A stretch of 37,160 nucleotides of DNA from Candidatus Woesearchaeota archaeon (GTDB taxonomy: Archaea; Nanobdellota; Nanobdellia; Woesearchaeales; GW2011-AR4): contig JADHVG010000007.1 in the NCBI GenBank assembly GCA_016784105.1, positions 1-37,160 of the forward strand, written 5' to 3'. A model generated the notes under the pieces. That model did no database searches. It worked only from the letters and a program-made list of their open reading frames with translations, and had not been told where the DNA came from. This document shows, one piece after another, positions 2,461-15,819 of this stretch (position 1 is its first letter; each line of letters starts with the position of its first letter). The position numbers were made by a program, and so were the translations under genes.

Positions 2461-4134
2461 TTATTTTGACCTTTTTGCTTCAAAGGTTATATTTATTCTC
2501 TTTTCTCCAGCAGACTCATCCAGTGGAACATCTAGGTGTAAGTCCACTTCCGCAGAATCTTGAGTATCATGGTAATCAAGATCTATGATTGCTAGTGTGG
2601 AAGTTATAGACAAGTTAGTGAAATCAATTATAGATTCTGACCAGTTGAATGAATTTAATTTTGTTGTTACATTAGCTATCTTAAACTGGAACTTGTCTGT
2701 TGGAGTAGATGCTGATTCCCATAAGTTTCCATCGGCGTATAATGAGATGTTCGTGAACACATTACCATCATTATCTAAGATTAATGGGGCTGGTACATTA
2801 TCAGTGGTATTATCATTTTGTCCTAAGCTCAAGGCTCCAAAGTCAACGGTGTCTGTTAACAAGCTTAAGCTCACATAAGATTCTATGGTTATGTTCCTTA
2901 TTTCAGATTCTGGACCGTGAGATGTGATTCCTGAGCTTGAGTTGTCTATAGCAGTTATGGACCAATTATAATAGAAATTATCATCTCCCAAGTACAATAA
3001 TTCAGATGGAGTGTAATTTAATGTTGTAAGATTAAGGTCTCTACTATCATCTGAGCAACCAACACAAATTATCTTTAGGTTGAAGAGTACTGATTCATTA
3101 TCTATTTCTGTTATGTTATTCCATACAAAGGTCGGAGTTCTGTTGATTGTGAAATTATGAGCTGCAGGAGATACTAAGATTACTTGATCTGGGGGAGTAT
3201 TTGCTACTTCTATCACGTGTGATGATTGGTTTTTATTATTGACAGAATCATTCACAATTATTGTGAAATTAATTACGTTCTCATTACTAAGTCCTATTGT
3301 GAAGTTCTGTGAACATTTATCAGAAGTCCCAGATATAGATTTGTTCAATATACTTAATGATCCATCCGCAGTCCCATTGGTTATGAACTGACAGCTGCTT
3401 AATCCAAAATTATCAGATAGGTTCGCTGAAATGTTGATGATATCATCTCTCTTAGGGGATGTGTTGTTTATGGAAGTGTTTAATGTTGGAGGGATTGTGT
3501 CTACTATCATTGTATAATTTTCCCTAAAGAAAGTTGTGAAAGCAGATTCATTAGCTTTAATGTTCCAGATGTAAATTCCGCCTTCTAAGTTAGTTAGGTT
3601 GAAACCATTTATCTTGTTGGAGATGAACGTACTTGTTTGGTTTTCTTTCCAGGTTCCGGAGAAGTTACCGTATAAGGTTGCAGCTACTGCATTATCTGAG
3701 GAAGCGTTGAAAGTAAAGTTGATACTTGTTGTTTGTACTGAATTGTTCACTGATCCTAGTGAGTTAACTCTAACCGGAACCAAGATATTGTACTTGGTGC
3801 TGTCATAAATATTGCTCTCGTTATCAGTACAGTTAACACTCATGAAATGTATTCCTAAAGGTATTCCTGCTGCTGAGAAGTTCAGAGTTTTGTTGAAAGT
3901 TATCTCTGTTGAATTCTGTTCAAGAGTTCCATTCCGGTACAAGAGACAAGACGTTATGTTTATTGCGTCTGTTGTTTTGTACTTGAACATGATAGGATCT
4001 TCTGTCTTGAATTGAGATGTGTCTTGTGAAGGTATGACTAAGTTGACAGCTCCTGCTATCCCTATGAACATTGCCATCAACATAGCTAATGCTATGAAAA
4101 TCTTCCAGTTTCCTAGATTAGCTTGGTTATTCAT
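2461..4134 (-). CDS. Large exported Ig-like surface protein
   Basis: The ORF track starts this frame at 4182, but I prefer the ATG at 4134 (MNNQANLGNWK). It is preceded by AAGGAG four bases upstream, and the longer version would overlap the upstream gene by 56 bp instead of 8. The roughly 557-aa product has a hydrophobic signal/anchor (WKIFIALAMLMAMFIGIAGA) and a Thr/Asn/Ser-rich ectodomain full of NxS/T sequons. Blocks such as TIPPTLNTSINNTSP and VANTPPDQVILVSP mark bacterial-type Ig/fibronectin-like repeats. The C-terminus shares a domain pattern with the 244-aa protein at 217-951. It is probably a glycosylated envelope or adhesion protein, and the gene before it is a likely regulator. Confidence 0.82.
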   Translation of the reverse strand: MNNQANLGNWKIFIALAMLMAMFIGIAGAVNLVIPSQDTSQFKTEDPIMFKYKTTDAINITSCLLYRNGTLEQNSTEITFNKTLNFSAAGIPLGIHFMSVNCTDNESNIYDSTKYNILVPVRVNSLGSVNNSVQTTSINFTFNASSDNAVAATLYGNFSGTWKENQTSTFISNKINGFNLTNLEGGIYIWNIKANESAFTTFFRENYTMIVDTIPPTLNTSINNTSPKRDDIINISANLSDNFGLSSCQFITNGTADGSLSILNKSISGTSDKCSQNFTIGLSNENVINFTIIVNDSVNNKNQSSHVIEVANTPPDQVILVSPAAHNFTINRTPTFVWNNITEIDNESVLFNLKIICVGCSDDSRDLNLTTLNYTPSELLYLGDDNFYYNWSITAIDNSSSGITSHGPESEIRNITIESYVSLSLLTDTVDFGALSLGQNDNTTDNVPAPLILDNDGNVFTNISLYADGNLWESASTPTDKFQFKIANVTTKLNSFNWSESIIDFTNLSITSTLAIIDLDYHDTQDSAEVDLHLDVPLDESAGEKRINITFEAKRSK

Positions 4135-5092
4135 CTTTCTCCTTAGCATTCTTGTACGTTGTCCAGACAGTCCGCTCATCACGCTGCATGAGCAGAGCTA
4201 TGTCATGGTACGAGATATTGAGAGAATCTTTGAGGAAAAGGATGATAGAGGAAGACATTCCCAAGTGGGGTTTTAGTGCTGACACTGGGATTAACTTGTC
4301 AGAAGAAAATTCTAGTTTGGAAGCTTTTGAAGAAGAGTAGGAATTCCAAATACTAGCATACTCTTTTTTTAGGAGTGAAGAAATTTTTGAGATGCTTAAT
4401 GAATAATTTTCTTTAAGGAATTTTACAACAGATTTTGTTGTGCTAAGATCTTCCGAGAATATGTCCGCAGGAATGAAATACGAATCTTCTAACTCAGAGA
4501 TTATGGAAACTAAAGGAAATTTCGAAAGTAGAGTATGGAAATTGATGTAGATTTTAGAAATATCGACATAGTTTTTTTCTTGTTGCTTTGTTTCTGCTTT
4601 CTTGTATGTTGTCCAGATAGTTCTCTGGTCTCTTTCCAAGATTCTTGCGATTTCAGAATATTTTAGGTTTAATTCTTCTTTGAGATATTTTACAAGATTC
4701 TCTAGGACACTCAAGTTTTCGTTTCTCAAAATGTAAGAAGGTATGAAGAACTTGGGTTTTTTCTTGAAAATAATTTGTTTCTTTTTGCTTTGATTGTAAG
4801 CATACCAGACATTTTTGTTGGTCTTTCCTAAGACGAGAGAGGCTTCTTTTATTGACAAAGAGCAGTCTTCTATCAAGTATTTAGAAATAGCTTCTAATGC
4901 GGACAGCTTTTTTGAGAAGATGAAATCCGGAAGAAAAAGTTCTTTTTTTTGAAAAATTAGAGAAGGATCAGGATACTTTTTCTTCAGTTCTTCATATTTT
5001 GGCTTTATTCTAGAGAAATAGGTGTTTTTTTGGAGCTTGCGTCTACTTAAAACTAGATTTTTCTCAGTATTTTCACTATTTTTACTGAACAT
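4127..5092 (-). CDS. Regulator with four tandem helix-turn-helix repeats
   Basis: A 321-aa soluble protein with four copies of a roughly 50-residue unit, at about residues 53-104, 115-167, 205-257 and 267-316. Each has the pattern (F/L)(I/L)P..I....LS, then a helix, then LS..EIA.LL.RD.RTIW.TY..AK. The last part looks like a sigma-70 region 4/HTH recognition helix: YSEIARILERDQRTIWTTYK in repeat 2 and YHDIALLMQRDERTVWTTYK in repeat 4. Repeats 2 and 4 are closest to each other; 1 and 3 are more diverged. Such a protein could read a long or repeated DNA site. It overlaps the following surface-protein gene by 8 bp, so it probably controls this surface operon. A TATA element near 5121-5130 lies within a 19-bp sequence that is repeated upstream. 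No ligand domain is visible. Confidence 0.8.
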   Translation of the reverse strand: MFSKNSENTEKNLVLSRRKLQKNTYFSRIKPKYEELKKKYPDPSLIFQKKELFLPDFIFSKKLSALEAISKYLIEDCSLSIKEASLVLGKTNKNVWYAYNQSKKKQIIFKKKPKFFIPSYILRNENLSVLENLVKYLKEELNLKYSEIARILERDQRTIWTTYKKAETKQQEKNYVDISKIYINFHTLLSKFPLVSIISELEDSYFIPADIFSEDLSTTKSVVKFLKENYSLSISKISSLLKKEYASIWNSYSSSKASKLEFSSDKLIPVSALKPHLGMSSSIILFLKDSLNISYHDIALLMQRDERTVWTTYKNAKEKDE

Positions 5093-5114
5093 TTATCTAT
5101 CTAATTGAGTAATA

Positions 5115-5133
5115 TTTCTAGTTATATAAGTAA
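5115..5133 (-). promoter_or_regulatory. Promoter-overlapping 19-bp direct repeat, copy 1
   Basis: TTTCTAGTTATATAAGTAA lies here and again at 5187-5205, 72 bp away. On the minus strand this copy contains TTATATAA about 27-33 nt before the ATG of the four-HTH regulator, so it holds the likely TATA box and suggests a nearly leaderless mRNA. The exact repetition of the bases around the TATA box suggests an operator, possibly for autoregulation by the neighbouring protein (inference). Confidence 0.6.
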
Positions 5134-5186
5134 CTCTTTAAATATTTTGTGCAAGAACTAGCAGAAATAAACCATTTTAAGTATTT

Positions 5187-5205
5187 TTTCTAGTTATATA
5201 AGTAA
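5187..5205 (-). repeat. 19-bp direct repeat, copy 2
   Basis: This is an exact second copy of TTTCTAGTTATATAAGTAA, the first being at 5115-5133. It has no gene start at the right distance on either strand, so it is more likely a second protein-binding site than a second promoter. The 72-bp spacing is close to seven helical turns. Confidence 0.6.
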
Positions 5206-5327
5206 TTAGTATAAATAAGTTTCTTTTTATTAGCAATATCTAATTGCAATCCTCACTTTAGCTTACTAAACCAGCTATTTGTGGGCATTATCCCCCATAA
5301 CCCACATCCAATCTACTGAAATAGTGA

Positions 5328-5353
5328 GTTTTTAGGGCTTATATCCTAAAAAC
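5328..5353. repeat. Perfect 9-bp stem hairpin
   Basis: GTTTTTAGG, loop GCTTATAT, CCTAAAAAC. It directly follows an AGTGAG motif (5323-5328). There is no adjacent gene end, so it is not an obvious terminator. Confidence 0.6.
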
Positions 5354-5633
5354 AATCTAAAAAGATATGGTGCCTAAACTCACATTTTAGAATAACTTAG
5401 AGTATTTCGGCTTGAACGGCTAGATCCCTTCACTGACCCTCACTTTTAGTTTTTGGAAATAAATTTAGTATAGATTAGCATAAAACTGGCCTTTTTAGTG
5501 TATTTTAGAGAGCTATCAAGATACCTAAAAAATAAGGCTTTTTGTGATCTCATTTTAGCTGAAAATATGCTATTTTTTGATTGTTTTTTGTGATGGGATT
5601 TTTTTATGGTTTTTCTTTTGCTATACTCACTAG

Positions 5634-5651
5634 TTGAACTCTCACTTTTCA
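5634..5651 (-). repeat. 18-bp repeat, inverted copy of 13694-13711
   Basis: On the minus strand this reads TGAAAAGTGAGAGTTCAA, identical over 18 bases to the plus strand at 13694-13711, 8 kb away. It contains the full 13-base AAAAGTGAGAGTT motif of the phased array. Confidence 0.75.
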
Positions 5652-5975
5652 AAACCCTAATTAATTAATTTCAATATAGAAAAATATAGAAAATAACTAA
5701 ATCATACTTTAATATCTAGGTTTAAAACAGTATTAACTAAAGACTATGATAAAAACTCTTGGTTAAATAATAATTAATAAAAACTATAGGCTATAAACTA
5801 TAAATAATAGAGAAAACCATAAAAAACAATTAAAAAAGATAAATAACTATAATTACTTAAATATTTTAAGATAAACTAATAAAATATAGTTAAATATTAA
5901 TTAAATATTATAATAAAAAACTAATATATTTAATCAATAGAAAAAATTAAAAAACATTAAAAAAATAACGAAAAA

Positions 5976-6407
5976 ATGAGACAAAAATTCTGGATAATTC
6001 TGCTTATTTTCCTGGTTGGTTGCCAAAGCCAGGATAGCATAACAATCGATAATTTTGAGGACAAAATAAAGGTTAAAGTAGAAATAGTGGATGAACCTGA
6101 AGAGCGCATGAAGGGCCTCATGTTCAGAGAAAGTTTAGGAAAACAAGAGGGGATGTTATTCATATTTGAAAGTGAGGATTACTATCCATTCTGGATGAAA
6201 AATACCTTGATTCCATTAGACATGATGTGGATTTCCGATGATAAAACAATAATAGATATACAAACAGCAGTACCCTGTGAAGAAGATCCATGTCCAAGCT
6301 ATTATCCTGTTGGAGATTCAAGATATGTTTTAGAAGTTAATGCAGGTTTTTCAGAAGAAAATAATATAAGGGTTGGAAACAAAATAGACTTAGGCACCAT
6401 AAACTAA
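5976..6407 (+). CDS. DUF192 family lipoprotein
   Basis: A 143-aa protein with a lipoprotein-type signal (WIILLIFLVGC; Cys16 would be the lipidated residue) followed by a DUF192 domain. Family hallmarks are visible in order: ERMKGLMFRESL, GMLFIFE, FWMKNTLIPLDMMWI, then YVLEVNAG near the end. The length fits the family. DUF192 proteins are small beta-barrel extracytoplasmic proteins of unknown biochemical function. The gene follows the long AT-rich intergenic region and is 33 bp ahead of the Cys-rich lipoprotein gene, so the two may be cotranscribed. Confidence 0.88.
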   Translation: MRQKFWIILLIFLVGCQSQDSITIDNFEDKIKVKVEIVDEPEERMKGLMFRESLGKQEGMLFIFESEDYYPFWMKNTLIPLDMMWISDDKTIIDIQTAVPCEEDPCPSYYPVGDSRYVLEVNAGFSEENNIRVGNKIDLGTIN

Positions 6408-6440
6408 GATAAGAAAAATAAACAAATTGATGGTTTCAAT

Positions 6441-6794
6441 ATGGTAAAAACAATGAATTTAACATTATTCATTTTTGGTATATTCTTATTATTTGGCTGT
6501 ACTCAAGAACTTCCAGCGAATAAGGATTCAGTCGAGGTTCCCGATGAGAAACCAATTGAAGAACCTGGAACCAAATCCATGACACCGGAATTATGCAATG
6601 CTGCTTATGGACACTGGAATGAGTGCGGAAGTCCTTGTGCTGGAACAGATGCAGAAATATGTGTTGCGATGTGCGCACAACAATGCGAATGTGGAGGCAT
6701 AGCAGGATTTGGCTGTCCAGAAGGCTACAATTGTAGATTAACGGGTAAAATAGCAGACGAGATGGGAGTGTGTGTTAGTTTAAACAAAGAATAA
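6441..6794 (+). CDS. Cysteine-rich lipoprotein
   Basis: A 117-aa protein with a lipobox-like signal (FIFGIFLLFGC) and a mature part with about a dozen cysteines. The segment GHWNECGSPCAGTDAEICVA followed by MCAQQC resembles the middle of the 185-aa lipoprotein at 9350-9907 (GEFDECASACRNDPNAEICT, then AQC), so both carry the same small disulfide-rich domain. It is likely extracytoplasmic and disulfide-bonded. The 3' end overlaps the convergent gene at 6780-7415 by 15 bp. The function is unknown; relation to the Kazal-containing protein hints at a protease-inhibitor or protein-binding role. Confidence 0.8.
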   Translation: MVKTMNLTLFIFGIFLLFGCTQELPANKDSVEVPDEKPIEEPGTKSMTPELCNAAYGHWNECGSPCAGTDAEICVAMCAQQCECGGIAGFGCPEGYNCRLTGKIADEMGVCVSLNKE

Positions 6795-7415
6795 CTCGTT
6801 AAAAGTCCAGTTTCTATCCGTTTTTCCGAACCATCCTTCTCTAACTTCAGTAAGATCATATTGGTCAAATTTAGAGATAACAATATTAGCACCCCTAGCC
6901 ACTGGTTGTTTTCCAACATCTACAGTTCTGGGCTGTTTTAGTTCACTTCTCAAATAGCTTCCAGAAGGCATATCATCTCTTTCATTCTTCCCAACATTAG
7001 CGACGAAATTTTCCCCTACCACCAAAATAGGAGTTTCATATCCATACGTTTCTTGAAGCGCTGTAACAGTATCTCTAGCATATCCCTCATTCAAGTAAGG
7101 AACTATCAGAATTGGATTTTTTTTGGACCATCTTGTGTCTTTTCTTTCTTCTACTGCTTCATCCAGCGATAGATGGTGTAGGTCATAGGTTGTATCTCCG
7201 ATAAGCACCTCGGATTCAGAATGATTGAGCAATTCAGATTCTGGAGGATTCTCATCTAAAGTCGCATACCTATCGATGAAATACAAACTGGGATTTTGTT
7301 TTAATTTTAGTACTCTTCCAGATGGAGAAGAATCGTTTGCCGATGTAGAATGAGGCGTGAGTCTCTCTTCGAGATTCTTTGCTCCGTTTACGTTTGTGCT
7401 TCTGGGTTTAAGCAT
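6780..7415 (-). CDS. Hypothetical protein
   Basis: A 211-aa soluble protein that I do not recognise. The first 45 residues are polar and probably disordered. The rest has alternating beta/alpha-type stretches (NPILIVPYLNEGYARDTVTA and TPILVVGENFVANVG), suggesting a Rossmann-like or restriction-fold core, but no catalytic motif is clear. It ends in an aromatic tail, WTFNELFFV. A TATA-like TTTAAAT on the minus strand near 7460 could drive it. It is convergent with the Cys-rich lipoprotein, overlapping by 15 bp. Confidence 0.6.
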   Translation of the reverse strand: MLKPRSTNVNGAKNLEERLTPHSTSANDSSPSGRVLKLKQNPSLYFIDRYATLDENPPESELLNHSESEVLIGDTTYDLHHLSLDEAVEERKDTRWSKKNPILIVPYLNEGYARDTVTALQETYGYETPILVVGENFVANVGKNERDDMPSGSYLRSELKQPRTVDVGKQPVARGANIVISKFDQYDLTEVREGWFGKTDRNWTFNELFFV

Positions 7416-7581
7416 GATGTTATTGAAAACACTAGTTTTGAGCTTATTGATTCACTCATTTAAATACTTTTCTATTTTGTATACTGGTATAGTAATTTAG
7501 CTATTCGGTAGTTTGTAGAGGGAACAAAAAGAAAGCTTTTTAAATCAAAGAGATTCCTAGATAGTTATTCTTACGAATTAA

Positions 7582-7611
7582 GGGACGCTACCCAGGTTCT
7601 AACAACGTCCC
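7582..7611 (+). promoter_or_regulatory. Hairpin in leader of the 7657 gene
   Basis: GGGACG and CGTCCC can form a 6-bp stem around an 18-nt loop, about 45 nt before the ATG at 7657. A TTTTTAAAT element near 7538 would place the transcript start near 7565, giving a roughly 90-nt leader. That is unusual here, where most genes look leaderless. It may control translation or stability. Confidence 0.4.
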
Positions 7612-7656
7612 AAAAAAGAGCGATACTACAAAACAACAAGATTCTGTTATGTAAAA

Positions 7657-8283
7657 ATGGAAATAAGCCACGCAATAAACAGCATGATGCACGTGCTTCC
7701 TGAACAGGGAGAGCTCATAGACCTAGAAGGAAAACTATCATCCTTAAAACAAGTTTATGAAATACTGAAAGACGAAAATAGCGGAGCTTCCTTTGAATTC
7801 AGAGATCCTACCGGGAAGAGATTAGGCTATGCTACTGAGATGAATCCTGGAAAAAGTTATGGTCACGATCTAGTCTATGCGTTCTTGGAAGCAGGAGCTG
7901 AATTAACAGGATATATCACCAAACAAGGTCTTCCTCATGGAATTGACATGGAAGTTGCAAGACTATTCTTATCAGAAACCCAATTTAATCCTGATTCAGG
8001 ACTTGATCCAAAAACTTTTAATGAAGGAATCAGCGCAAAAATCTACGATAAAAAAGATTTATGGCACAATAGAAACTTATGGCAAGACTTTACCAGCACA
8101 TACCTAGATCAAGAAAACAGGATGAATCCTACCCTTTTAGGAAAAGGAATTGTGCTTTTGAATGGCTCACAAGATCTAACCGGAGCATTAAACAAAGCGA
8201 TAACCCAAGCAGGATTTGACCCAAAACAAATCGGAGACTATGATGTTGCTGTTTCCCCAATAAAAAAACAAATTGTTTACTGA
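7657..8283 (+). CDS. Hypothetical protein
   Basis: A 208-aa soluble protein that I do not recognise. It has no signal peptide or membrane segment. Two features stand out: a central FEFRDPTGKRLGYATEMNPG stretch, likely a beta hairpin, and a Trp/Asn-rich segment, KDLWHNRNLWQDFTS. The start ATG has no Shine-Dalgarno, but a leader with a hairpin precedes it. Base composition and codon use look like the neighbours. It stands alone between a divergent hypothetical gene and a non-coding GC-rich element. Confidence 0.65.
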   Translation: MEISHAINSMMHVLPEQGELIDLEGKLSSLKQVYEILKDENSGASFEFRDPTGKRLGYATEMNPGKSYGHDLVYAFLEAGAELTGYITKQGLPHGIDMEVARLFLSETQFNPDSGLDPKTFNEGISAKIYDKKDLWHNRNLWQDFTSTYLDQENRMNPTLLGKGIVLLNGSQDLTGALNKAITQAGFDPKQIGDYDVAVSPIKKQIVY

Positions 8284-8385
8284 TTATTTCTTCCCAAAAC
8301 TTAATTCTATTACAGTTGTTTCAGAACAAAACACCTGTTTAATGTAAAAACCTCAACATCTTGAATTCTTACCAATGAAAGAAGC

Positions 8386-8414
8386 GAGGGAGTCCAAAAA
8401 GTTCATATAATGCG
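8386..8414 (+). repeat. Repeat arm A: GAGGG-N5-AAAAAG-NN-CATATAATG
   Basis: This shares the layout GAGGG, 5-6 bases, AAAAAG, 2 bases, CRTRTAATG with the sequence at 10109-10136 (same orientation), and faces the inverted arm at 8534-8583. It forms the left end of the GC-rich hairpin element. Confidence 0.5.
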
Positions 8415-8543
8415 GAGCTAGGTGACAGAATGGCTCGTCGTCAGGCAACCCTGACAGACGAGACTTTTGCGTAGCAAAAGTTACAGGAGCATTTGGGGGT
8501 TGTGATGCCCAGAAAAGTGGACGCATCTAGCACACATTATACG
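8404..8543 (+). ncRNA. Candidate structured RNA or hairpin-rich element
   Basis: In an AT-rich background this stretch is about half G+C and folds well on paper. The outer arms CATATAATG/CATTATACG and GCTAG/CTAGC close a multibranch structure. Inside are a 12-bp stem with one bulged A (CTCGTCGTCAGG, loop CAAC, CCTGACAGACGAG; 8434-8462), a perfect 8-bp stem (ACTTTTGC, GTA, GCAAAAGT; 8463-8481) and a weaker GCAT/ATGC stem (8489-8508). A run of seven T follows at 8569-8575. A GC-rich island in an AT-rich archaeon often marks a non-coding RNA. I do not recognise it as SRP RNA, RNase P, 5S rRNA or a tRNA. Alternatively, it is a small DNA element with terminal inverted repeats. The strand is assumed from the T run. 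Confidence 0.45.
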
Positions 8544-8583
8544 CAAGCAGGCTTTGATGGACTGCGACTTTTTTTCTGACCTC
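8534..8583 (-). repeat. Repeat arm B (inverted)
   Basis: ACATTATACGC and CTTTTTTTCTGACCTC, separated by 23 bases, match in inverted orientation the sequence at 10109-10138 (GAGGGTCAGAAAAAAAG then GGCGTGTAATGT). Together they bracket the toxin-antitoxin pair and the Kazal lipoprotein gene. Confidence 0.5.
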
Positions 8584-8700
8584 AATTATATCACACAAGG
8601 GATTTTTAAGTCGTTGTGCACTCCAAAAAAGAGGCGTTTCTGTACTTTTTAAAGATAAATACGAAGATTTTTATAGGGAGAAGCCACTATTTGATTTACA

Positions 8701-8907
8701 ATGAGCGAAATGTTTGAAAAACAAATAATGGATAAATTGTTGAATTTGGAGCGAGGAATGAACTCTATGAAACAAGAAATTGATCTAATCAAGGAAAGAG
8801 TAGTTGATGATTCTACACTTAGTGATGATGATAAAAAAGCACTTGATGCAGCTTTAAAAGAACATAAAGAAGGAAAACTTTTTACTAAAGATCAAGTTTT
8901 TGATTAA
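8701..8907 (+). CDS. RelB-like antitoxin
   Basis: A 68-aa acidic, helical protein (KQIMDKLLNLERGMNSMKQE then IDLIKERVVDDSTLSDDDKK). It looks like the short archaeal RelB-type antitoxins, in which a helical N-terminus is followed by a region that wraps around the toxin. It sits immediately before a RelE/ParE-like toxin gene, with one base between its stop and the toxin ATG. A TATA-like element lies about 27 nt before its ATG, which would give a leaderless mRNA. Identification rests on size, charge and position rather than on a strong motif. Confidence 0.75.
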   Translation: MSEMFEKQIMDKLLNLERGMNSMKQEIDLIKERVVDDSTLSDDDKKALDAALKEHKEGKLFTKDQVFD

Positions 8908-8908
8908 G

Positions 8909-9175
8909 ATGGTTCAATTTCCTGCAGAATTCTCTTCGAGATCTAGAAAATATATCAAGAAGCTCGATAGCGATACAAAGTTAAGGTTAAGAGATAGAAT
9001 CGATAAACTAGAAGAAGATCCTTTTCCTTCAGAAGTAGAAAGAGTTAAGGATTACAAAGAAGGTAAGGCTTTTCGTGTTCGGGTGGGAGAACAAAGAATT
9101 CTGTATTTAGTTCAATACAATCCAAATAAGATTATTGTGTCCAAAATAGATAAGCGTTCTCGTGTTTACAATTAG
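8909..9175 (+). CDS. RelE/ParE-family toxin
   Basis: The product is about 88 aa from the ATG at 8909. The ORF track begins at a TTG at 8900 that would overlap the antitoxin, and I consider the ATG more likely. The sequence has the RelE/ParE layout: an N-terminal strand, two helices (SRSRKYIKKLDSDTKLRLRD), a basic middle (VKDYKEGKAFRVRVGEQRI) and the C-terminal strands LYLVQYNPNKIIVSKIDKRS. RelE members cleave mRNA on the ribosome and ParE members target gyrase; the basic GKAFRVRVGEQRILY core and basic C-terminus favour RelE. It is paired with the antitoxin just upstream. Confidence 0.85.
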   Translation: MVQFPAEFSSRSRKYIKKLDSDTKLRLRDRIDKLEEDPFPSEVERVKDYKEGKAFRVRVGEQRILYLVQYNPNKIIVSKIDKRSRVYN

Positions 9176-9208
9176 TATTTCTTGAAAAGTTAGTTGGCGT
9201 GGCTGAAC

Positions 9209-9232
9209 CATATAATGTACACACATTATATG
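9209..9232. repeat. Perfect inverted repeat between TA pair and Kazal gene
   Basis: CATATAATGT, ACAC, ACATTATATG: 10-bp arms with a 4-bp centre. The arms match those closing the GC-rich element at 8404/8535. It lies 34 bp after the toxin stop. It could be a terminator, an operator or a recombinase site resembling archaeal dif; the matching arms elsewhere favour a recombination or binding site. Confidence 0.55.
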
Positions 9233-9349
9233 AAAGAAATGAGGCTAAGTCTGAGGTTGAATTGGGAATTCTTTTTTAGAATATTTAGGGGCATTTAGTA
9301 AACATATTTATATATAACCTAAACTAGAAACTATAGTAGGAAGATTATT

Positions 9350-9907
9350 ATGAAAATTAAAATATTATCATTCGTATTTCTCGTCATTAGTTTGCTTATT
9401 GTTAGCGCTTGTTCAAACCAAGTTGCTAATGAGCCTGCAAAAAAAATTCCAAAGCCGTGCACAGCAGATTGGAATCCTGTCTGCGGAGTTGATGGAGTTA
9501 CATACAGTAATAAGTGCAGTGCAGGAGATATCAAAATTTCTTATGAATGGGAATGCGAAAGCGATAATCAAAATTCATGTGGGGATTTAGGGGGAAATTG
9601 GATTGATGACTCGAATGAATGCGAAGACATTTCGCAGCAAAATTGCGAAGCTTTAGGTGGGGAATTTGATGAGTGTGCTTCAGCATGTAGAAATGACCCA
9701 AATGCAGAAATATGCACCGCACAGTGTGTCCCACTCTGTAAGTTCAAAGAAGCTGCACATGTTTGCACAGAAGAAGAAAAAATGAACCAGATCTGCACAA
9801 GAGAATACATCCCCGTGTGTGGCAGCGATGAGGTTACCTATCCAACAGGATGTACGGCTTGCGCTGCTGGCGTAGATTCTTGGACAGAAGGTGAATGTCC
9901 TAGCTAA
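9350..9907 (+). CDS. Lipoprotein with two Kazal-type inhibitor domains
   Basis: A 185-aa protein with a lipobox signal (VISLLIVSAC, Cys21). Residues about 36-69 form a Kazal domain (CTADWNPVCGVDGVTYSNKC and on to YEWEC), and residues about 150-183 a second (CTREYIPVCGSDEVTYPTGC and on to TEGEC). Between them is the Cys-rich module shared with the 117-aa lipoprotein at 6441-6794. Kazal domains inhibit serine proteases by presenting a rigid loop, so this is likely a surface-tethered protease inhibitor, perhaps defensive or for contact with a host cell (inference). A TATA element near 9307-9319 and a GGAAG sequence precede the ATG. The gene sits between two inverted-repeat sites (9209-9232 and 10128-10147). 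Confidence 0.85.
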   Translation: MKIKILSFVFLVISLLIVSACSNQVANEPAKKIPKPCTADWNPVCGVDGVTYSNKCSAGDIKISYEWECESDNQNSCGDLGGNWIDDSNECEDISQQNCEALGGEFDECASACRNDPNAEICTAQCVPLCKFKEAAHVCTEEEKMNQICTREYIPVCGSDEVTYPTGCTACAAGVDSWTEGECPS

Positions 9908-10108
9908 TTTTCTAAAAAGGATACGTGTCCCTTATTAATAATTCTCAATTCAACCCTTGTTTCTCGAAGAATATAGATAGCGAGCAATGTGGCGAGCGTA
10001 ATTGTTGTCGCTTGCGACAGTTTGAATTTTTTTCTTTACAATGGAAATTGTTAGATGATTTCTTGGAGCTTTGTATGTGAAAAGAAACTCTCATCGAGAA
10101 ACTCGTAG

Positions 10109-10147
10109 AGGGTCAGAAAAAAAGGGCGTGTAATGTATATTATACGA
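10109..10147 (+). repeat. Repeat arm D with imperfect palindrome
   Basis: GAGGGTCAGAAAAAAAG is followed by CGTGTAATGTATATTATACG, an inverted repeat with 8-bp arms (7 of 8 matching). The first part is the inverted counterpart of arm B at 8534-8583. It lies just before the promoter of the 10182 gene, 340 bp before the XerA-like recombinase gene. Confidence 0.5.
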
Positions 10148-10181
10148 AGTTTTTTATATTTTGGATGAATTATACTGCAAC

Positions 10182-10496
10182 ATGTTATATGACCCAAAGA
10201 AAATAGGGGTAGAAATCACAGATATAGTCCAAAATGCTATTACAACCGGTTCTGCTCCAGTGGAAATAGGACTGGTTAACTTAAGTAACAGTGGTAGTGT
10301 GATTAAAGATAAATCATCCAACCTTGGATGGGAGATTTATGCAAAACCTGGAGAAGGACCAGAACTTAGAGTGGTTGTTCATTTTTCTGAAGCTTTTAAC
10401 ACATATTCAAAACTTAGAAGTAGATTTAAGGAATGGGGTATTGAAACGCAAAAAGGAAGATACGATTTCATAATGGATATTCCAGAAAATGATTGA
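10182..10496 (+). CDS. Hypothetical protein upstream of recombinase
   Basis: I start this gene at the ATG at 10182 (MLYDPKKIGVEI) rather than the TTG at 10161 used by the ORF track, because the TATA-like TTTTTATATTTT at about 10150-10160 is 26 nt before 10182 and would give a leaderless mRNA. The product is about 104 aa, soluble, alpha/beta, and acidic at the C-terminus. I do not recognise it. Its stop overlaps the recombinase start by 8 bp, so the two are cotranscribed and probably made in linked amounts, which suggests an accessory role to the recombinase. Confidence 0.65.
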   Translation: MLYDPKKIGVEITDIVQNAITTGSAPVEIGLVNLSNSGSVIKDKSSNLGWEIYAKPGEGPELRVVVHFSEAFNTYSKLRSRFKEWGIETQKGRYDFIMDIPEND

Positions 10497-11304
10497 AAAA
10501 CTGCAAACAGAACTCAAGATAAGAGGATTTAGTAAACAAACAATTAACTCTTATACTTTTCACAATACCAACTTCTTAGAATTTATTGATAAAAAACCGG
10601 AAGATGTGCTGAAAGATGATATCAAAGCATACATGGCCCATCTGATGTCAGAAAGAGGCCTTAAACCAAGTTCAGTAAGCCTAGCAATGAGTTCTTTGCG
10701 TTTTTTGTATGACGAAATGCTCGGGAAAGGTTTATTTGTAGGAATAAAGATGCCAAAACTAGAAAAAAAGCTTCCAATGGTCCTCACCAAAGCAGAAATC
10801 AAGCAACTTATTGAAATTATAGACAACCCTAAACATAAGTTACTGGTAAAAATGTTATATTCTTCTGGATTAAGAGTATCGGAATGTGTAAATCTTAAGG
10901 TAAAACATCTTGATCTGGAAGACAAATTCGGGTTTGTTAAAGCAGGTAAAGGAAACAAAGACCGGAACTTCATAATCTCAGGAGATCTAATACCCACTAT
11001 CAATTCCTACCTTAATGAAAGAAAAAATGAATCGAAATACTTGTTCAATGTTAAAGATAAAGCTCTAAGTACAAGACAAGCCCAAAGAATAGTAGGGGAT
11101 GCAGCCAAGAAGGCAGGAATCAAGAAAAGAGTGTTTTGTCATGCTTTGAGGAGCAGCTTCGCAACACACTTACTGGAATCAGGGACCGATATAAGGATAA
11201 TACAAGAACTGCTAGGGCATGCGAATCTGGCAACTACTCAAAGGTATACACAAGTAAGTAAAGAACAACTACGGAAAGTAAGAAGTCCGCTAGATGATTT
11301 ATAA
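10489..11304 (+). CDS. xerA: Tyrosine recombinase, XerA-like
   Basis: A 271-aa two-domain tyrosine recombinase. Residues about 1-85 are the SAM-like core-binding domain (SKQTINSYTFHNTNFLEFID). Residues 95-271 are the catalytic domain with all expected residues: Arg129 (SSGLRVSE), Lys154 (KAGKGNKDR), His218 and Arg221 (HALRSSFATHLL), His244 (LLGHANLATT) and nucleophile Tyr253 (QRYTQVS). The length fits archaeal XerA, which resolves chromosome dimers at dif. It could equally be an integrase of a small mobile element, given the toxin-antitoxin genes and inverted repeats nearby. It overlaps both neighbours by a few bases and forms a three-gene transcript with the hypothetical genes on each side. 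Confidence 0.92.
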   Translation: MIEKLQTELKIRGFSKQTINSYTFHNTNFLEFIDKKPEDVLKDDIKAYMAHLMSERGLKPSSVSLAMSSLRFLYDEMLGKGLFVGIKMPKLEKKLPMVLTKAEIKQLIEIIDNPKHKLLVKMLYSSGLRVSECVNLKVKHLDLEDKFGFVKAGKGNKDRNFIISGDLIPTINSYLNERKNESKYLFNVKDKALSTRQAQRIVGDAAKKAGIKKRVFCHALRSSFATHLLESGTDIRIIQELLGHANLATTQRYTQVSKEQLRKVRSPLDDL

Positions 11305-11782
11305 AATGGGAGAAGTAGACTACTCTAAACAAGCTCATTGGAATAAAGCTAGTGATAAAAGCAGGGTGAATAGGTTGTATGAGACGGAAAGCGATACGCG
11401 AGATGATCCTTCTATAAATGTAACAAAATTGCTTTTTACTGCAAGATATTCTGCTAATAAGGGAGATTACAAATCTATGGAATCTGATTTAGAAAACTTA
11501 AAAGATAACTCCAACTTGAGTTTCATGAATTCCATAGCAAATAAGGTTAAAGAAATAAAAAAAGTGGGATACAGAACCGCATCAAAGAGTCTTGTTTCGA
11601 GAATAAAAAAGGAATTACGAAGCCAAAATATTTCAAACGCAGATAGCATGTTGGAAGAGCTAAAACTCTGTTGTGAAGCGCTTAAAGAACAAAAATATGA
11701 TACTGAAGCATGCTATCTTGAAGTGGAAATCGATACTTCCAGAGAGTATTTAGCCGGATGGAATTCTTTAAGCAATGGGTAA
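11294..11782 (+). CDS. Hypothetical helical protein
   Basis: A 162-aa protein, almost entirely alpha-helical, with many Lys, Ser and Glu. Segments such as LLFTARYSANKGDYKSMESD and the later SMLEELKLCCEALKEQKYDT resemble TPR-like helical pairs, but the match is weak. Two starts are possible: the ATG at 11294, overlapping the recombinase by 11 bp, and the ATG at 11306 just after its stop. It is the last gene of the recombinase transcript and ends before a strong bidirectional hairpin. The function is unknown. Confidence 0.6.
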   Translation: MIYKMGEVDYSKQAHWNKASDKSRVNRLYETESDTRDDPSINVTKLLFTARYSANKGDYKSMESDLENLKDNSNLSFMNSIANKVKEIKKVGYRTASKSLVSRIKKELRSQNISNADSMLEELKLCCEALKEQKYDTEACYLEVEIDTSREYLAGWNSLSNG

Positions 11783-11868
11783 CTTATTTTCCATATTGTA
11801 AATTAATAACCCCTATTGATTAAAACTTTTAAGAAATAACTAAAAGAAATAATCAAAAAAGAAAATAG

Positions 11869-11893
11869 AAGTTTTAAGAAATACTTAAAACTT
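11869..11893. terminator. Bidirectional hairpin between convergent genes
   Basis: AAGTTTTAAG, AAATA, CTTAAAACTT is a perfect 10-bp inverted repeat between the convergent genes at 11294-11782 and 11894-12463, abutting the latter's stop codon. Part of it (TTTTAAGAAATA) also occurs as a direct repeat at 11827-11838. It is a likely terminator for both directions. Confidence 0.55.
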
Positions 11894-12463
11894 TTAATTG
11901 AAATTAACGAGCTCTTTTTGCGCAGTATCTATCATCAATATGTTTTCCTTGGCTTGTAACCTCTTAAAATCAGGATTCAATTTCAGATAAGGTGCATTGT
12001 TCACATACCTCCTTATCAAAGGAATTCCTTTACCAACTAACCTGGAAATATACTCACTCACGATATAGCTCGGAAACCCGGTTTTCTTCTCAATGTCTAT
12101 ATGGGAAACAAGACCCTTTTCATCTTCTAAAGCATAAATAACAAGAAAAACATGCTGTTCAGATTTAGTTAAAGGCTCAATGTTAAAGCTTTGCTTCTCG
12201 ACGATAAAATTGCTATTGCTTTGTAGAAATAATTCAACACTTTCCAATCGTTCAGCAATCTTTTCGACCTTGTTGTGCAGTTCATCAACACAGCCATAAT
12301 TGGTCTGGATTTCGTCTGTGTTCTGGTTAATAGCTTCTAAGTGCTCATCCAGTTCGGTTTTAACTGTTTTTAGAGCTTCTTTGAGCTCAAAGTCACTCAT
12401 TTTTGGTTTTTTAGAGAAATAGCGCTTTCTCTCCTTAAAAAAATTGTCAAATATCTTAACCAC
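11894..12463 (-). CDS. Coiled-coil plus winged-helix protein
   Basis: A 189-aa protein. Residues about 22-85 are a charged helix, probably a coiled coil (LKEALKTVKTELDEHLEAIN). Residues about 95-165 look like a winged helix (TKSEQHVFLVIYALEDEKGL, then HIDIEKKTGFPSYIVSEYIS), with a wing ending PYLKL. It has the same architecture as the 214-aa protein just upstream on the same strand. A TATA-like ATTTAAATA near 12490 indicates its own promoter. It is a DNA-binding protein that probably multimerises. It could be a transcription regulator or a partition-type DNA-binding protein; the repeat arrays beyond its neighbour make the second possibility worth testing. Confidence 0.65.
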   Translation of the reverse strand: MVKIFDNFFKERKRYFSKKPKMSDFELKEALKTVKTELDEHLEAINQNTDEIQTNYGCVDELHNKVEKIAERLESVELFLQSNSNFIVEKQSFNIEPLTKSEQHVFLVIYALEDEKGLVSHIDIEKKTGFPSYIVSEYISRLVGKGIPLIRRYVNNAPYLKLNPDFKRLQAKENILMIDTAQKELVNFN

Positions 12464-12525
12464 CCCATTTCTTTGAAATGATACGTGATTTAAATACTTT
12501 TATATTGTAGAAAATATCGATTCTA

Positions 12526-13170
12526 TTAATGCTGTTTCTGATGCTTATAGAGGTAATATTTTTGCTTTCCTCGTCGAGCAATACTTACTTCTGCTTGTTC
12601 TTCAAGCTCCTCCAGAATACGATAAAACGAGCTTTTAGAACACAAACCCTGATCAATAACTACCATTTCTTTGAGTTGTAAAGAGCTTATCTGACCATAT
12701 TTACGTATATAAGAAAATATTAAGTTTTTAACGTAATCCTTGGAATTTCGGGTTACTCTCTTCACAACTTTATCCCTGATTGTTGCTTTCCTTTGCTCTT
12801 CCAGCGTAGAAAGCCTTTTTTCTAACTCATATAGCTCCCGAGGTTTTTCTGCTGATTGAGTAGTCTGAGAAGGCTTTACGTGCATAGTGTCCATACGCTC
12901 ATTAAGCATCTTTATACGCTCCATCATGTTGTCAAAAGAATAATGGCTGTCAATAATTTTACGAATATCTTCAGGTCTTTTTGGAATGTAAGAAAGCTCT
13001 AATTGCAATTGTTTTATTGTATTTTCCTGCTGCATGTTTTTTTGGTACAAAAAATTAAGCCACTGAAAAATATTCTGAGTGTCTTTTTTAACATTTAGAA
13101 ATGACCTTTCAAGAAGCCTATGCAAATTGGATATTTTTTTGTCTGTTTTTGATCTTAATAAAGCGAACAT
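12526..13170 (-). CDS. Coiled-coil plus winged-helix protein next to repeat arrays
   Basis: A 214-aa basic protein. The N-terminal half is helical (MQQENTIKQLQLELSYI), residues about 110-130 are a strong coiled coil (ELYELEKRLSTLEEQRKATI), and residues about 145-210 form a winged helix (VKNLIFSYIRKYGQISSLQL, recognition helix around SKSSFYRILEELEE, wing ARRGKQKYYLYK). A TATA box (TTTAAATA on the minus strand, about 13189-13200) lies just before the start, and directly behind it begins an array of GGGA motifs at 11-bp spacing. A gene adjoining iterated sites commonly encodes the protein that binds them, so this is the best candidate binder (inference). It is paired with the similar 189-aa protein downstream. 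Confidence 0.68.
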   Translation of the reverse strand: MFALLRSKTDKKISNLHRLLERSFLNVKKDTQNIFQWLNFLYQKNMQQENTIKQLQLELSYIPKRPEDIRKIIDSHYSFDNMMERIKMLNERMDTMHVKPSQTTQSAEKPRELYELEKRLSTLEEQRKATIRDKVVKRVTRNSKDYVKNLIFSYIRKYGQISSLQLKEMVVIDQGLCSKSSFYRILEELEEQAEVSIARRGKQKYYLYKHQKQH

Positions 13171-13208
13171 ATCTCAATTATTATTGCCTTTTTATTTAAA
13201 TTTTTTGA

Positions 13209-13341
13209 TTTTTTTGGGAATATACTGGGACCAAATTAGGACTATTATGGAATTAATTGGGACTAAGTTATAGACGATAAATTAGATATTCTCAGGACTG
13301 ATCTGGGAATTTTATGGGAATTACTAGGGACAAAAATGGGA
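13209..13341. repeat. Double array of 11-bp GGGA repeats (2 x 5)
   Basis: GGGA or GGA motifs end at 13219, 13230, 13241, 13251 and 13262 (steps of 11, 11, 10, 11). After a 35-bp interval they resume at 13297, 13308, 13319, 13330 and 13341 (steps of 11). Typical units are ATTTTATGGGA, ATTACTAGGGA and CAAAAATGGGA. The layout, two groups of five 11-bp direct repeats with a gap, resembles parC of plasmid R1. The array lies behind the promoter of the coiled-coil/winged-helix gene. Confidence 0.6.
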
Positions 13342-13506
13342 ATAGAAAAGTATATTAAGGAAAAGGCAGATAGTAAGAAAAAAGATAAAGAAAATTTAAT
13401 GAAAAAATATAGATCAATAAAAAAAATTGATTCAGAAAAATAAATATCTTAAAAAATTAAACCATAAATTCAAAATATAAATAAAAAAATAGGAGAAATA
13501 TAATCG
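13342..13506. other. AT-rich spacer between the two arrays
   Basis: An A/T-dominated stretch with almost no G or C, between the GGGA array and the AAAAGTGAG array. A 35-codon Lys-rich frame (13336-13443) runs through it, but I do not regard it as a gene. The composition fits an easily melted segment. Confidence 0.5.
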
Positions 13507-14002
13507 AAAAGTGAGCCAAAAAATTGTTAAAAAACAGACATTTTTAGATCAAAATAGCAGAATATAGGCTAAAAGTGAGAGTTAAAACCAGGTAAAAAAT
13601 AGGATAAATGGTCAAATAGGCCTGAAAAGGACGAAAAGTGAGAGTTCATATTGGAGAAATAGGCCAAAAATGGCTAAAATAGAGGCTAAATGATGAAAAG
13701 TGAGAGTTCAATAAGGTCGAAAAAGGCACTTGAGATGATACTATCTCGGCTTAAGGTGTTCCAAGACCCAAAAGTGAGACTTGAACAGTACCCTACTGAT
13801 CCGGAGATAGCAGCAGAGATACTGTGGAACATGCACATGCGCAAGGATATAGGAAAAGTGAGTGTTGATCTGGGGTGTGGGACTGGGATGTTGGGCATAG
13901 GTATGCTGTTATTAGCAAAAGTGAGAGTTTTCATGATTGATATGGATGAAGACGCACTAAAAGTAGCTAAAGAGAACCTTGCAACAGTGGAAAGTGAGTA
14001 TA
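13507..14002 (+). repeat. Helically phased AAAAGTGAGAGTT array
   Basis: Eight copies of AAAAGTGAG (consensus AAAAGTGAGAGTT; the last copy begins GAAAGTGAG) start at 13507, 13571, 13634, 13696, 13770, 13854, 13917 and 13990. The steps are 64, 63, 62, 74, 84, 63 and 73 bp, each within 0.1 turn of a whole number of 10.5-bp helical turns. Three copies are upstream of the METTL5-like gene and five lie inside its coding sequence in two different reading frames, so the pattern is not a protein repeat. All copies are on the plus strand. Confidence 0.8.
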
Positions 14003-14334
14003 CTCTGCTTGGTGAAGCTGTTTTTGAGTGCAAGGATGTTGCTGATTTCGATAAAAAAGTTGATGTTGTCGTCGAGAATCCACCTTTCGGGATTAAAAAA
14101 AAGAACGCAGACAAAGTTTTTTTGGAGAAAGCTTTTTCGCTTTCCGATGTTGTTTATAGCTTCCACATGTCCGAAACCAAAGAGTTTATTGAAAAATTCT
14201 CGTCGAGAAATGGCTTTAAGATAACAGATAGGTGGGATTTTAACTTCCCTCTAAAGGCAACATATTTCTTTCATCGGAAGAAAATTGAAAGAGTTCCGGT
14301 TAGCTGTTTTAGATTTAAGAGAATAAAAGAATAA
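13690..14334 (+). CDS. METTL5-like RNA adenine methyltransferase
   Basis: A 214-aa class I SAM-dependent methyltransferase. Motif I is DLGCGTG (residues 60-66), the acidic motif is IDMDEDAL, and the catalytic NPPF tetrapeptide is at 130-133 (ENPPFGIKKK), typical of N6-adenine methylation. The N-terminal FQDPKVRLEQYPTDPEIAAE is a hallmark of the archaeal/eukaryotic METTL5 family, whose human member methylates 18S rRNA. A target in 16S rRNA is therefore likely. The first ten residues (MMKSESSIRS) come from a copy of the repeated AAAAGTGAGAGTT motif, and four more copies are inside the gene. A start at the second ATG (13693) is equally possible. Confidence 0.88.
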   Translation: MMKSESSIRSKKALEMILSRLKVFQDPKVRLEQYPTDPEIAAEILWNMHMRKDIGKVSVDLGCGTGMLGIGMLLLAKVRVFMIDMDEDALKVAKENLATVESEYTLLGEAVFECKDVADFDKKVDVVVENPPFGIKKKNADKVFLEKAFSLSDVVYSFHMSETKEFIEKFSSRNGFKITDRWDFNFPLKATYFFHRKKIERVPVSCFRFKRIKE

Positions 14335-14409
14335 TTCAGATTAAATTTATTTCCGTCGCTGATCTTACAATATTGTTACACAGACAATACATTTTTGATG
14401 GTTGGTATC

Positions 14410-14817
14410 CTATTTTATAAGTTCTTCAACACAATGATTCATTGTGCTTCCAGTTTCAACAACACTGTCATAGATTAAAACACTTCTTGAAATTGAAGGT
14501 TCTCCGATTAATCTTATTGAAGGATTATTGAAAAAATCGTCAAAAGAGGTTACACCTTCGTCGACATCTCCTTCTGAAACTGATTGAACGTATCTTTGTT
14601 GTGCTTGCTCTACTAATGAGGCATCTTTGTATCCTCCACGTTTTACTAAAGGCCAAAAAGATAATACCTGATACTCTGGCTTGATTAAATTATCATGACC
14701 TCTACTAAAAAACGATCTTTTTCCGCTTCTTTGAACTAAAACTATATCAGTCTCTGCTTGAGAAAGTAAGTGATCTTCTACTGTCATTTCTTCGTCTAGA
14801 ACAGCAATTAAGTTCAT
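14410..14817 (-). CDS. Phosphoribosyltransferase-fold protein, possibly degenerate
   Basis: The ORF track starts at 14835, but TTTTAAA at 14841-14847 is about 27 nt before the ATG at 14817 (MNLIAVLDEEMTVED), which suggests a leaderless start there. The product is about 135 aa. Near the end it has VLIYDSVVETGSTMNHCVEE, which matches the PRPP-binding loop of type I phosphoribosyltransferases (hhhhDDhhxTGxT), with the first acidic residue replaced by Tyr and the second followed by Ser. The protein is shorter than most family members and lacks a clear hood. It may be a small PRTase, a regulator with that fold or a decayed copy. No partner gene is evident. Confidence 0.5.
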   Translation of the reverse strand: MNLIAVLDEEMTVEDHLLSQAETDIVLVQRSGKRSFFSRGHDNLIKPEYQVLSFWPLVKRGGYKDASLVEQAQQRYVQSVSEGDVDEGVTSFDDFFNNPSIRLIGEPSISRSVLIYDSVVETGSTMNHCVEELIK

Positions 14818-14909
14818 ATCAACAGAGAAACTCAAATCTATTTTAAACTATTCTAATTACCCTAATCTCAATCAAAAGGTTTTTAAAACAAGATATATTC
14901 CAGAACAAT

Positions 14910-15185
14910 ATGGAAATTAGCGTTATAGAAGACAAAAAAAGTAAACTAGTTTTTGAAGTGGACGGTATGGGACATACGTTCATGAATGTTCTTAAGAATG
15001 AACTTTGGCAAGACAAAAGCGTTAAAATTTCTACTTACAGTGCTCGACATCCAATTATAAGCAAGCCTAAACTGATTCTGGAAACAGATGGCAAAGATCC
15101 TAGGGAAGCTCTTAAAGCGGCAGTTTCAAGATTGAAGAAAGAATCAGAAAAATTCAAGAAGGGAATTGCTAAAGAAATAAAATAA
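14910..15185 (+). CDS. rpoL: RNA polymerase subunit Rpo11 (L)
   Basis: The 91-aa length is typical of archaeal Rpo11. The conserved core is present: a beta strand (SKLVFEVDGMGHTFMNVLKN), then ELWQDKSVKISTYSARHPII, then PKLILETDGKDPREALKAAV with a long C-terminal helix. Rpo11 pairs with Rpo3 to form the platform on which archaeal RNA polymerase assembles. A TTTTTAAAA element about 28 nt before the ATG suggests leaderless transcription. A hairpin after the gene (15232-15265) or the T run at 15189-15193 may end the transcript. This is one of the clearest archaeal markers in the window. Confidence 0.92.
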   Translation: MEISVIEDKKSKLVFEVDGMGHTFMNVLKNELWQDKSVKISTYSARHPIISKPKLILETDGKDPREALKAAVSRLKKESEKFKKGIAKEIK

Positions 15186-15231
15186 TACTTTTTCTTAATT
15201 TTAGCATATATTTTGTAAATTAGTGTACAGA

Positions 15232-15265
15232 TTTGGTATTCCTTTGTAAGTCTTGTAATGCCAAA
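15232..15265 (+). terminator. Possible hairpin after rpoL
   Basis: TTTGGTATT and AATGCCAAA can pair over 9 bp (one G-U) around a 16-nt loop. It lies between rpoL and the next gene. It may be a terminator or mRNA stabiliser; no T run follows directly. Confidence 0.35.
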
Positions 15266-15330
15266 ATCCTAAGGTTTTAAGCTTTACAGGAAACGAAAAA
15301 GATATAAACACTATAGTGCCTAAAACTACC

Positions 15331-15819
15331 ATGAGTTTTGTCCGAATAAAGAAAATTAACGGTAATGAATACGCTTATTTAGTGGAAAATAAGTGGTACA
15401 AGAACCGCAGCAAAGGAAAGGACAAAGGTCCTAGGCAGAAGGTCTCAAAGTACCTAGGCCGAGTGCACAGCTTTAACAAAACATCAGAACAAAAATTCCA
15501 TGAATACAAAAAAATAGAAGACATGGAACAGTATATAGTGAGTAATACTCAAGATTCTATCATAAAAGATCTAATAAGATGGGAACTAGCTAGGAACAGT
15601 ATAGACACAACCGAATTTAGTGTGAACTTTTCAAGCAAAAAAGTCTTCAAAGGTAAGAAAGAAGTTTCCTTAAGAATGAATGAAGGGTTTTTGAACAGCT
15701 ACACCCTCAGAAGGCTCTTTAACCTAAAAAAAGAAGACAGCTATTATCTAGCAAAAAGCTTTATTGATGCCGGAATAGAAATACCGAAAGAAATCTTTAT
15801 TGGACTTTTTAGCGAATAA
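15331..15819 (+). CDS. Protein with transposase-like N-terminus
   Basis: I choose the ATG at 15331 (MSFVRIKKINGNEYAYLVEN); the ORF track uses a GTG at 15316. A GATATAAAC element around 15300-15308 is the right distance for a leaderless start at 15331. The product is about 162 aa. Its N-terminal 45 residues (VRIKKINGNEYAYLVENKWY, then GPRQKVSKYLGRV) resemble the start of IS1634-type transposases, but there is no DDE catalytic core, no terminal repeat and no sign of decay. It may be a domesticated DNA-binding domain. The C-terminal half is helical and unrecognised. It is convergent with the rhomboid gene, one base apart. Confidence 0.65.
   Translation: MSFVRIKKINGNEYAYLVENKWYKNRSKGKDKGPRQKVSKYLGRVHSFNKTSEQKFHEYKKIEDMEQYIVSNTQDSIIKDLIRWELARNSIDTTEFSVNFSSKKVFKGKKEVSLRMNEGFLNSYTLRRLFNLKKEDSYYLAKSFIDAGIEIPKEIFIGLFSE

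Follow-up and report, generated by a model that had tools for sequence, protein, structure and literature searches.

A conserved 11-bp phased repeat array paired with a winged-helix gene at an origin-like chromosomal locus of Candidatus Woesearchaeota

Two blocks of five GGGA-type words with a period of 11 bp are present in the window (the whole 37,160-nucleotide stretch of DNA that was analysed), which is contig C65 of a 1.19-Mb draft genome in 71 contigs (G000) with relatives among Candidatus Woesearchaeota. This 11-bp array is no chance pattern but a genuine, conserved element that can be tested; it is found in near single copy per genome and is paired with the gene of a coiled-coil/winged-helix protein, wHTH_A. 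At a probability of roughly 45%, the array is read here as a single-copy chromosomal site that would be bound by wHTH_A and would most likely be associated with a replication origin, autoregulation being a secondary role. The features of the locus are listed in Table 1.

Table 1. Coordinates of the array and of associated features in the window.
Feature	Position	Strand	Remarks
Left k-box cluster	5252..5649	-	opposite direction; AAAAGTGAG 5' ends at 5649 and 5447, AAAGTGAG at 5259
14-bp palindrome TTTCNATATNGAAA	5669..5682		outermost left k box 28 bp away
Lowest-GC 250-bp stretch of the window	5717..5966		12.8% GC; candidate duplex-unwinding element
XerA tyrosine recombinase gene	10489..11304	+	over the NCBIfam equivalog cut-off
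wHTH_B gene	11894..12463	-	second coiled-coil/winged-helix protein
wHTH_A gene	12526..13170	-	214 aa; presumed array-binding protein
TATA box (TTTATTTAAAT) of the leaderless wHTH_A gene	13191..13201	-	kept in relatives; putative promoter
Array A	13215..13264	+	five (G)GGA words at 11/11/10/11 bp
Spacer motif TTATAGACGATAAA between arrays A and B	13268..13281		degenerate copy of the order-wide palindrome TTTATCGACGATAAA
Array B	13294..13342	+	five (G)GGA words spaced exactly 11 bp
Eight polar k boxes	13507..13998	+	five rightmost boxes within the methyltransferase gene (two reading frames)
MTS-type methyltransferase gene	13690..14334	+	contains k boxes
RNA polymerase subunit gene, Rpb11/L type (Rpo11)	14910..15185	+	conserved flank in 51/59 loci

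Array A is composed, in order, of the words TGGGAATATAC, TGGGACCAAAT, TAGGACTATT, ATGGAATTAAT, and TGGGACT, with GGA starting at 13217, 13228, 13239, 13249, and 13260, while the GGA starts of array B lie at 13295, 13306, 13317, 13328, and 13339; degenerate members have AGGA or TGGA in place of GGGA. The GGGA/GGA ends given in the original prediction match these computed coordinates exactly. The + strand of the window has two chains of five GGA at 10–12 bp spacing, and there are no others in the window. The array also surpasses its shuffled controls: 2000 local dinucleotide-preserving shuffles gave chains of at most four members (13/2000), and two chains of five were never obtained (0/2000). 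The array escapes Tandem Repeats Finder, since no more than about five of every 11 bases are repeated, and the search for known RNA families in the region 4000–15500 gave none above chance. Over 59 homologous loci, 203 of the 389 GGGA-to-GGGA distances are 11 bp, against 21 distances of 10 bp and 15 of 12 bp, and neighbouring GGGA show a second spacing peak at 22 bp (n = 39). The array exceeds 100 shuffles at 37 of these 59 named loci.

Such helical phasing of G/C and A/T, with autocorrelation peaks near 11 and 22 bp, would also be expected of architectural DNA in which GGG and AT-rich stretches position archaeal histones or another nucleoid protein without any specific reader. This explanation is very unlikely because rotational phasing alone would need no conserved word, strand, or gene pairing, whereas the word TGGGA(A/C)T is conserved together with its strand, is found at one main locus per genome, and travels with one gene family. 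Hardly any probability attaches to a decayed coding repeat, in which the 11-bp period would be the relic of an 11-residue protein repeat (frame 1: ...DLGILWELLGTKMGIEK...). One frame is indeed open after 13267, but translation of any DNA repeat with an 11-bp period gives an 11-aa period whichever frame is read, and the frames of the first half contain stops. It was ruled out by the arrays of the relatives, which are intergenic and conserved as DNA.

Of 39 relatives, 28 have homologues of wHTH_A, and homologues were also identified in 59 named records, mostly from Candidatus Woesearchaeota. The array is kept beside homologous genes, so that the original prediction passes the second of its own two checks, the first being periodicity above shuffled controls. 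A pattern of three TGGGA words at 11-bp spacing, with one mismatch allowed, was found in 21 of the 39 relatives, at one main locus each and in nearly all cases beside wHTH_A, while reversed-pattern controls in the same scan gave zero matches. Similarly, an order-wide scan with TGRGA matched 25 of 118 genomes, and in 24 of these 25 the match lies beside a gene of the wHTH_A family. Some of the order-wide matches belong to short wHTH_A paralogues with TGAGAC arrays, mostly upstream of the gene, located on contigs without AAAAGTGAGAGTT (k) boxes. A plain regulon operator was ruled out, as the pattern finds one main locus per genome. In addition, the entire wHTH_A/wHTH_B/array/Xer locus was observed in L265 (JAHILT010000040.1), a contig deposited in a Patescibacteria MAG and probably a misbinned archaeal one.

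The protein wHTH_A has an N-terminal coiled coil (helix 2–60) and a C-terminal winged helix (143–208), the latter confident in the structure model, with the recognition-helix sequence SKSSFYR. Its neighbour in 59 of 59 named loci is wHTH_B. Searches of wHTH_A against Pfam, NCBIfam, and PDB sequences gave no convincing relative, and the family profile found no significant relative among solved structures in a PDB sequence search. Structural matches of the model are generic winged helices only, including AspA (4rs8/5k5q) and TubR (3m8f; rank 41); another match, 2mh2, which we take to be Hop2, stands alongside a weak Pfam match to TBPIP. The repeat word is AGTCGACT in G027 and mixed TGGGA/TCCCA in other distant lineages, while G025 and G038 have a different word (GGTTCGGTAC/GTACGAACC) with copies inside or behind the wHTH_A gene. 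The recognition helix reads SK(S/T)(S/T)FYR with GGGA-type repeats and G-R-T-(A/T)-F-Y with GGTTC-type repeats; this shift of helix with repeat word is, as far as the sequences tell, the signature of a protein–site pair. The proposal that the neighbouring winged-helix protein binds the array is well supported by the co-travel of gene and site, from which we infer the binding itself.

The arrangement of promoter and arrays is shared among relatives. It comprises a TATA box, array A with 4–5 TGGGA(A/C)T words, a spacer with GACGATAAA, and array B with five words, to which a third word group is sometimes added. The array had been placed directly behind the promoter in the original prediction, and array A indeed begins just upstream of the TATA box of the minus-strand gene; both arrays are conserved in an alignment of 20 loci, in all of which array A abuts the conserved wHTH_A TATA box. 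The spacer palindrome TTTATCGACGATAAA is retained in many distant lineages with a changed repeat word, and many relatives have a BRE/TATA-like GACGAAAAG-TTTAAATATT in the spacer. This architecture would suit an autoregulatory operator, in which wHTH_A sits on array A between divergent promoters and on array B over the rightward start, with the first TATA box serving wHTH_A-wHTH_B and a second TATA in the spacer serving rightward transcription, so that its own operon and the methyltransferase-Rpo11 operon would both be repressed or activated. The arrays are mostly upstream of the gene, likewise for most of the short paralogues. However, the array lies downstream of the wHTH_A gene in five genomes (G026, G031, G032, G058, and G330), behind the 3' end of an inverted gene in G031 and G032, and inside or behind the gene in others; the methyltransferase can be lost while array and k boxes remain; and it is hard to see what else a regulator would do whose sole strong genomic site adjoins its own gene. 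Therefore, the operator array that was also suggested at the outset is weakened in its pure form by the downstream and internal arrays, while the lineages with upstream arrays are compatible with it, and as a full explanation it is rather unlikely.

The original prediction likened the array to parC of plasmid R1, in which a promoter element separates two sets of five direct repeats of 11 bp each. The geometry is indeed alike, in that phased direct repeats flank a promoter element as two blocks, but the remainder of the likeness does not hold. ParMRC has the actin-like ParM in its operon, whereas the annotated neighbours in the window and in syntenic relatives include no such gene; ParR is a ribbon-helix-helix protein, whereas wHTH_A combines a winged helix with a coiled coil; and the array is chromosomal and may be downstream of the gene. 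The parC of pSK41 has 10-bp repeats (PMC4911067). TubZRC also has a winged-helix protein beside an iterated site (TubR and tubC), but it encodes the tubulin/FtsZ-like TubZ, whereas no tubulin-like gene is present at the array locus and the operon partner is wHTH_B; the likeness of TubR to wHTH_A is that of a generic fold, and wHTH_A adds a long coiled coil. The archaeal winged-helix centromere binder AspA of pNOB8 spreads on DNA, and the sites of AspA and SegB have been described (PMC5120986). Nucleation of AspA takes place at a single 23-bp palindrome, and its operon also encodes ParB and ParA. Neither of these two was found at the array locus, and the structural similarity of AspA to wHTH_A is weak.

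The actin-, tubulin-, or ParA-type partner that a segregation system would call for is missing from the locus. The ParA-type ATPase domain PF13614, as used in ParABS, SegAB, and AspA-ParBA, is nowhere in the locus and is absent from the draft itself and from most of the other array-bearing genomes of the same family, these drafts being incomplete. Membership in parC/ParMRC, TubZRC, ParABS/SegAB, or AspA-ParBA is not supported because there is no adjacent partner NTPase. A centromere-like segregation site, in which wHTH_A and the array would form a chromosomal partition complex (like parC, tubC, or the AspA site) caught by an unknown motor or SMC, with XerA for dimer resolution, is consequently improbable. 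It would agree with the single-copy phased array, the winged-helix protein, the parC/tubC-like geometry, the presence of centromere-binding winged helices among the generic structural matches, and the XerA equivalog at the locus, Xer homologues being in or close to it in many genomes. Besides the missing NTPase, it is countered by the lack of any sign of movement or anchoring.

The surroundings of the array are origin-like, which was not anticipated in the original prediction. In most relatives the k motif, AAAAGTGAG(N)GTT, clusters at the array locus; at 56 of the 59 loci it occurs upstream of wHTH_A and on the same strand as the array. The right cluster of the window has AAAAGTGAG at 13507, 13571, 13634, 13696, 13770, 13854, and 13917 and AAAGTGAG at 13991. 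The k boxes face outward on both sides of a 4–8 kb block, which in many genomes holds XerA and both wHTH genes. The lowest-GC 250 bp coincide with the outermost k box in the window as well as in three contigs of 158–306 kb (G012C4, G009C12, and G021C3). For the palindrome TTTCNATATNGAAA, 25 occurrences at no more than 120 bp from k boxes were counted where 4 were expected, the usual distance being 28 or 36–39 bp.

The methyltransferase gene of the window and of many relatives has 3–6 AAAGTGAG boxes in two reading frames. In 42 loci, 115 k boxes were observed within this gene, compared with 5.6 expected from synonymous codons, so these boxes reflect DNA- or RNA-level selection inside coding sequence. 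That methyltransferase coding alone accounts for the k box was ruled out by this excess, by the use of two frames, and by the persistence of the box without the gene, which is missing in some lineages that still have array and k boxes. Other elements were also noticed around the locus. A decamer, TTAGGCAC(C/T)A, is repeated upstream of a small predicted lipoprotein gene on another contig of the same genome (C39, L001:85–200) and recurs at conserved places flanking the array/k locus (window 5377, 6390, and 15323), where it looks like another operator. The window also encodes a predicted protein with two Kazal-type protease-inhibitor domains (9350–9907; E 5e-16), which is unexpected in an archaeon, and a 321-aa protein (4127–5092) that matches a sigma-70 region 4-like helix-turn-helix (E 3e-10) and, as its second match, HTH_23, in an archaeal genome.

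The canonical archaeal oriC is defined by Orc1/Cdc6 and ORB boxes; of its elements, the array/k locus has the AT-rich unwinding element but lacks the ORB boxes, the ORB-like TTCCANNNGAAA occurring there at 0.018/kb, equal to background, vs. 0.569/kb at the cdc6 loci. The orc1/cdc6 loci (L057–L086) have inverted ORB-like boxes, TTTCCANNNGAAAC...GGGGT, around an AT-rich stretch with the palindrome TTTCTATATAGAAA, and a further ORB-like box often overlaps the cdc6 TATA box. Judged from these sequences, the orc1/cdc6 loci are the candidate canonical, ORB-bearing origin in Woesearchaeota. The k box itself was ruled out as an ORB, since the ORBs of the cdc6 loci differ from it and k boxes are essentially absent there. 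The palindrome TTTCNATATNGAAA is also found upstream of orc1/cdc6 in 27 of 30 loci, where it is flanked by ORB-like boxes.

Iterons have longer repeat units and are carried on plasmids. With their Rep initiators they resemble the array in being a protein-plus-direct-repeat module with helical phasing beside its own gene, whereas the array occurs on chromosomes, in many families of one order. Another counterpart is oriC3 of Sulfolobus, which has no ORB and is adjacent to the winged-helix initiator gene whiP (PMC4010727), while the Sulfolobus origins have a DUE motif in common (PMC12141716). As here, oriC3/WhiP combines a winged-helix gene with an ORB-less chromosomal site and shares the motif of its AT-rich element with an orc1/cdc6-type origin; WhiP is related to Cdt1, whereas the array locus has two coiled-coil proteins and an 11-bp phased array, and its origin activity is putative. 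An origin-associated maintenance role is therefore favoured, with modest confidence, since the locus has an unwinding-element signature without ORBs together with winged-helix genes, as does oriC3/WhiP relative to oriC1.

Strand composition was analysed at four-fold sites. GC skew has a significant changepoint at the locus in contig C4 of G012 (0/1000 permutations), and in G009 the sign is opposite to that of G012 on the same side; no GC changepoint at the locus was found in G021, G027, or G035. The complete genome G032 shows no skew switch at the locus, its skew extremes lying elsewhere, near 165 and 700 kb. Identification of the locus as terminus or primary origin by GC skew was dropped owing to this inconsistency across genomes, which also counts against the origin reading. 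As a separate observation, four-fold sites on one strand of the 1.30-Mb G032 (contig C1, L103–L165) have more A than T over almost all of the 1.25 Mb read, without a sign switch, which is unusual for bidirectional replication. The origin reading is further opposed by the canonical ORB-bearing candidate already present at orc1/cdc6, and plain autoregulation would look identical wherever the array is upstream of the gene. Moreover, the module is not obligatorily tied to an origin-like locus, because the short wHTH_A paralogues carry arrays on k-less contigs.

According to the preferred, origin-associated reading, arrays A and B would be the DNA that the neighbouring wHTH_A specifically recognizes, protein and site together making up a module of which a genome has essentially one. 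With one wHTH_A molecule for each 11-bp turn, all on the same side of the double helix, the complex would be a nucleoprotein filament, which we infer to be about 130 bp long. In most lineages, this site sits in an origin-like chromosomal locus, in which polar boxes, the shared palindrome, and an adjoining XerA accompany a strongly AT-rich element. The most probable role of the array there would be in chromosome maintenance, as the place where a WhiP-like initiator or regulator is loaded or controlled, repression or activation of the flanking divergent promoters being a secondary effect. The more specific proposal, tentative and held with less assurance than the association as such, is a second, ORB-less origin besides that at orc1/cdc6, in which AAAAGTGAGAGTT boxes would replace ORBs beside the shared DUE palindrome, and the coiled-coil winged-helix pair with the array would act as initiator or loader, as an independent counterpart of Sulfolobus oriC3/WhiP.

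The DPANN archaea are poorly accessible to genetics, and their replication start and chromosome segregation are largely unknown; a search of the open-access literature turned up no work on the origins of Woesearchaeota. The module described here, a protein with its site, extends across the order, and its conserved locus has origin-like features; it provides named sequences that can be tested. If the locus is not an origin, it would still be an unusual single-site DNA–protein array, in which the 11-bp phase was kept while the repeat word changed. If it is an origin, it would be an independent case of a winged-helix-defined archaeal origin.
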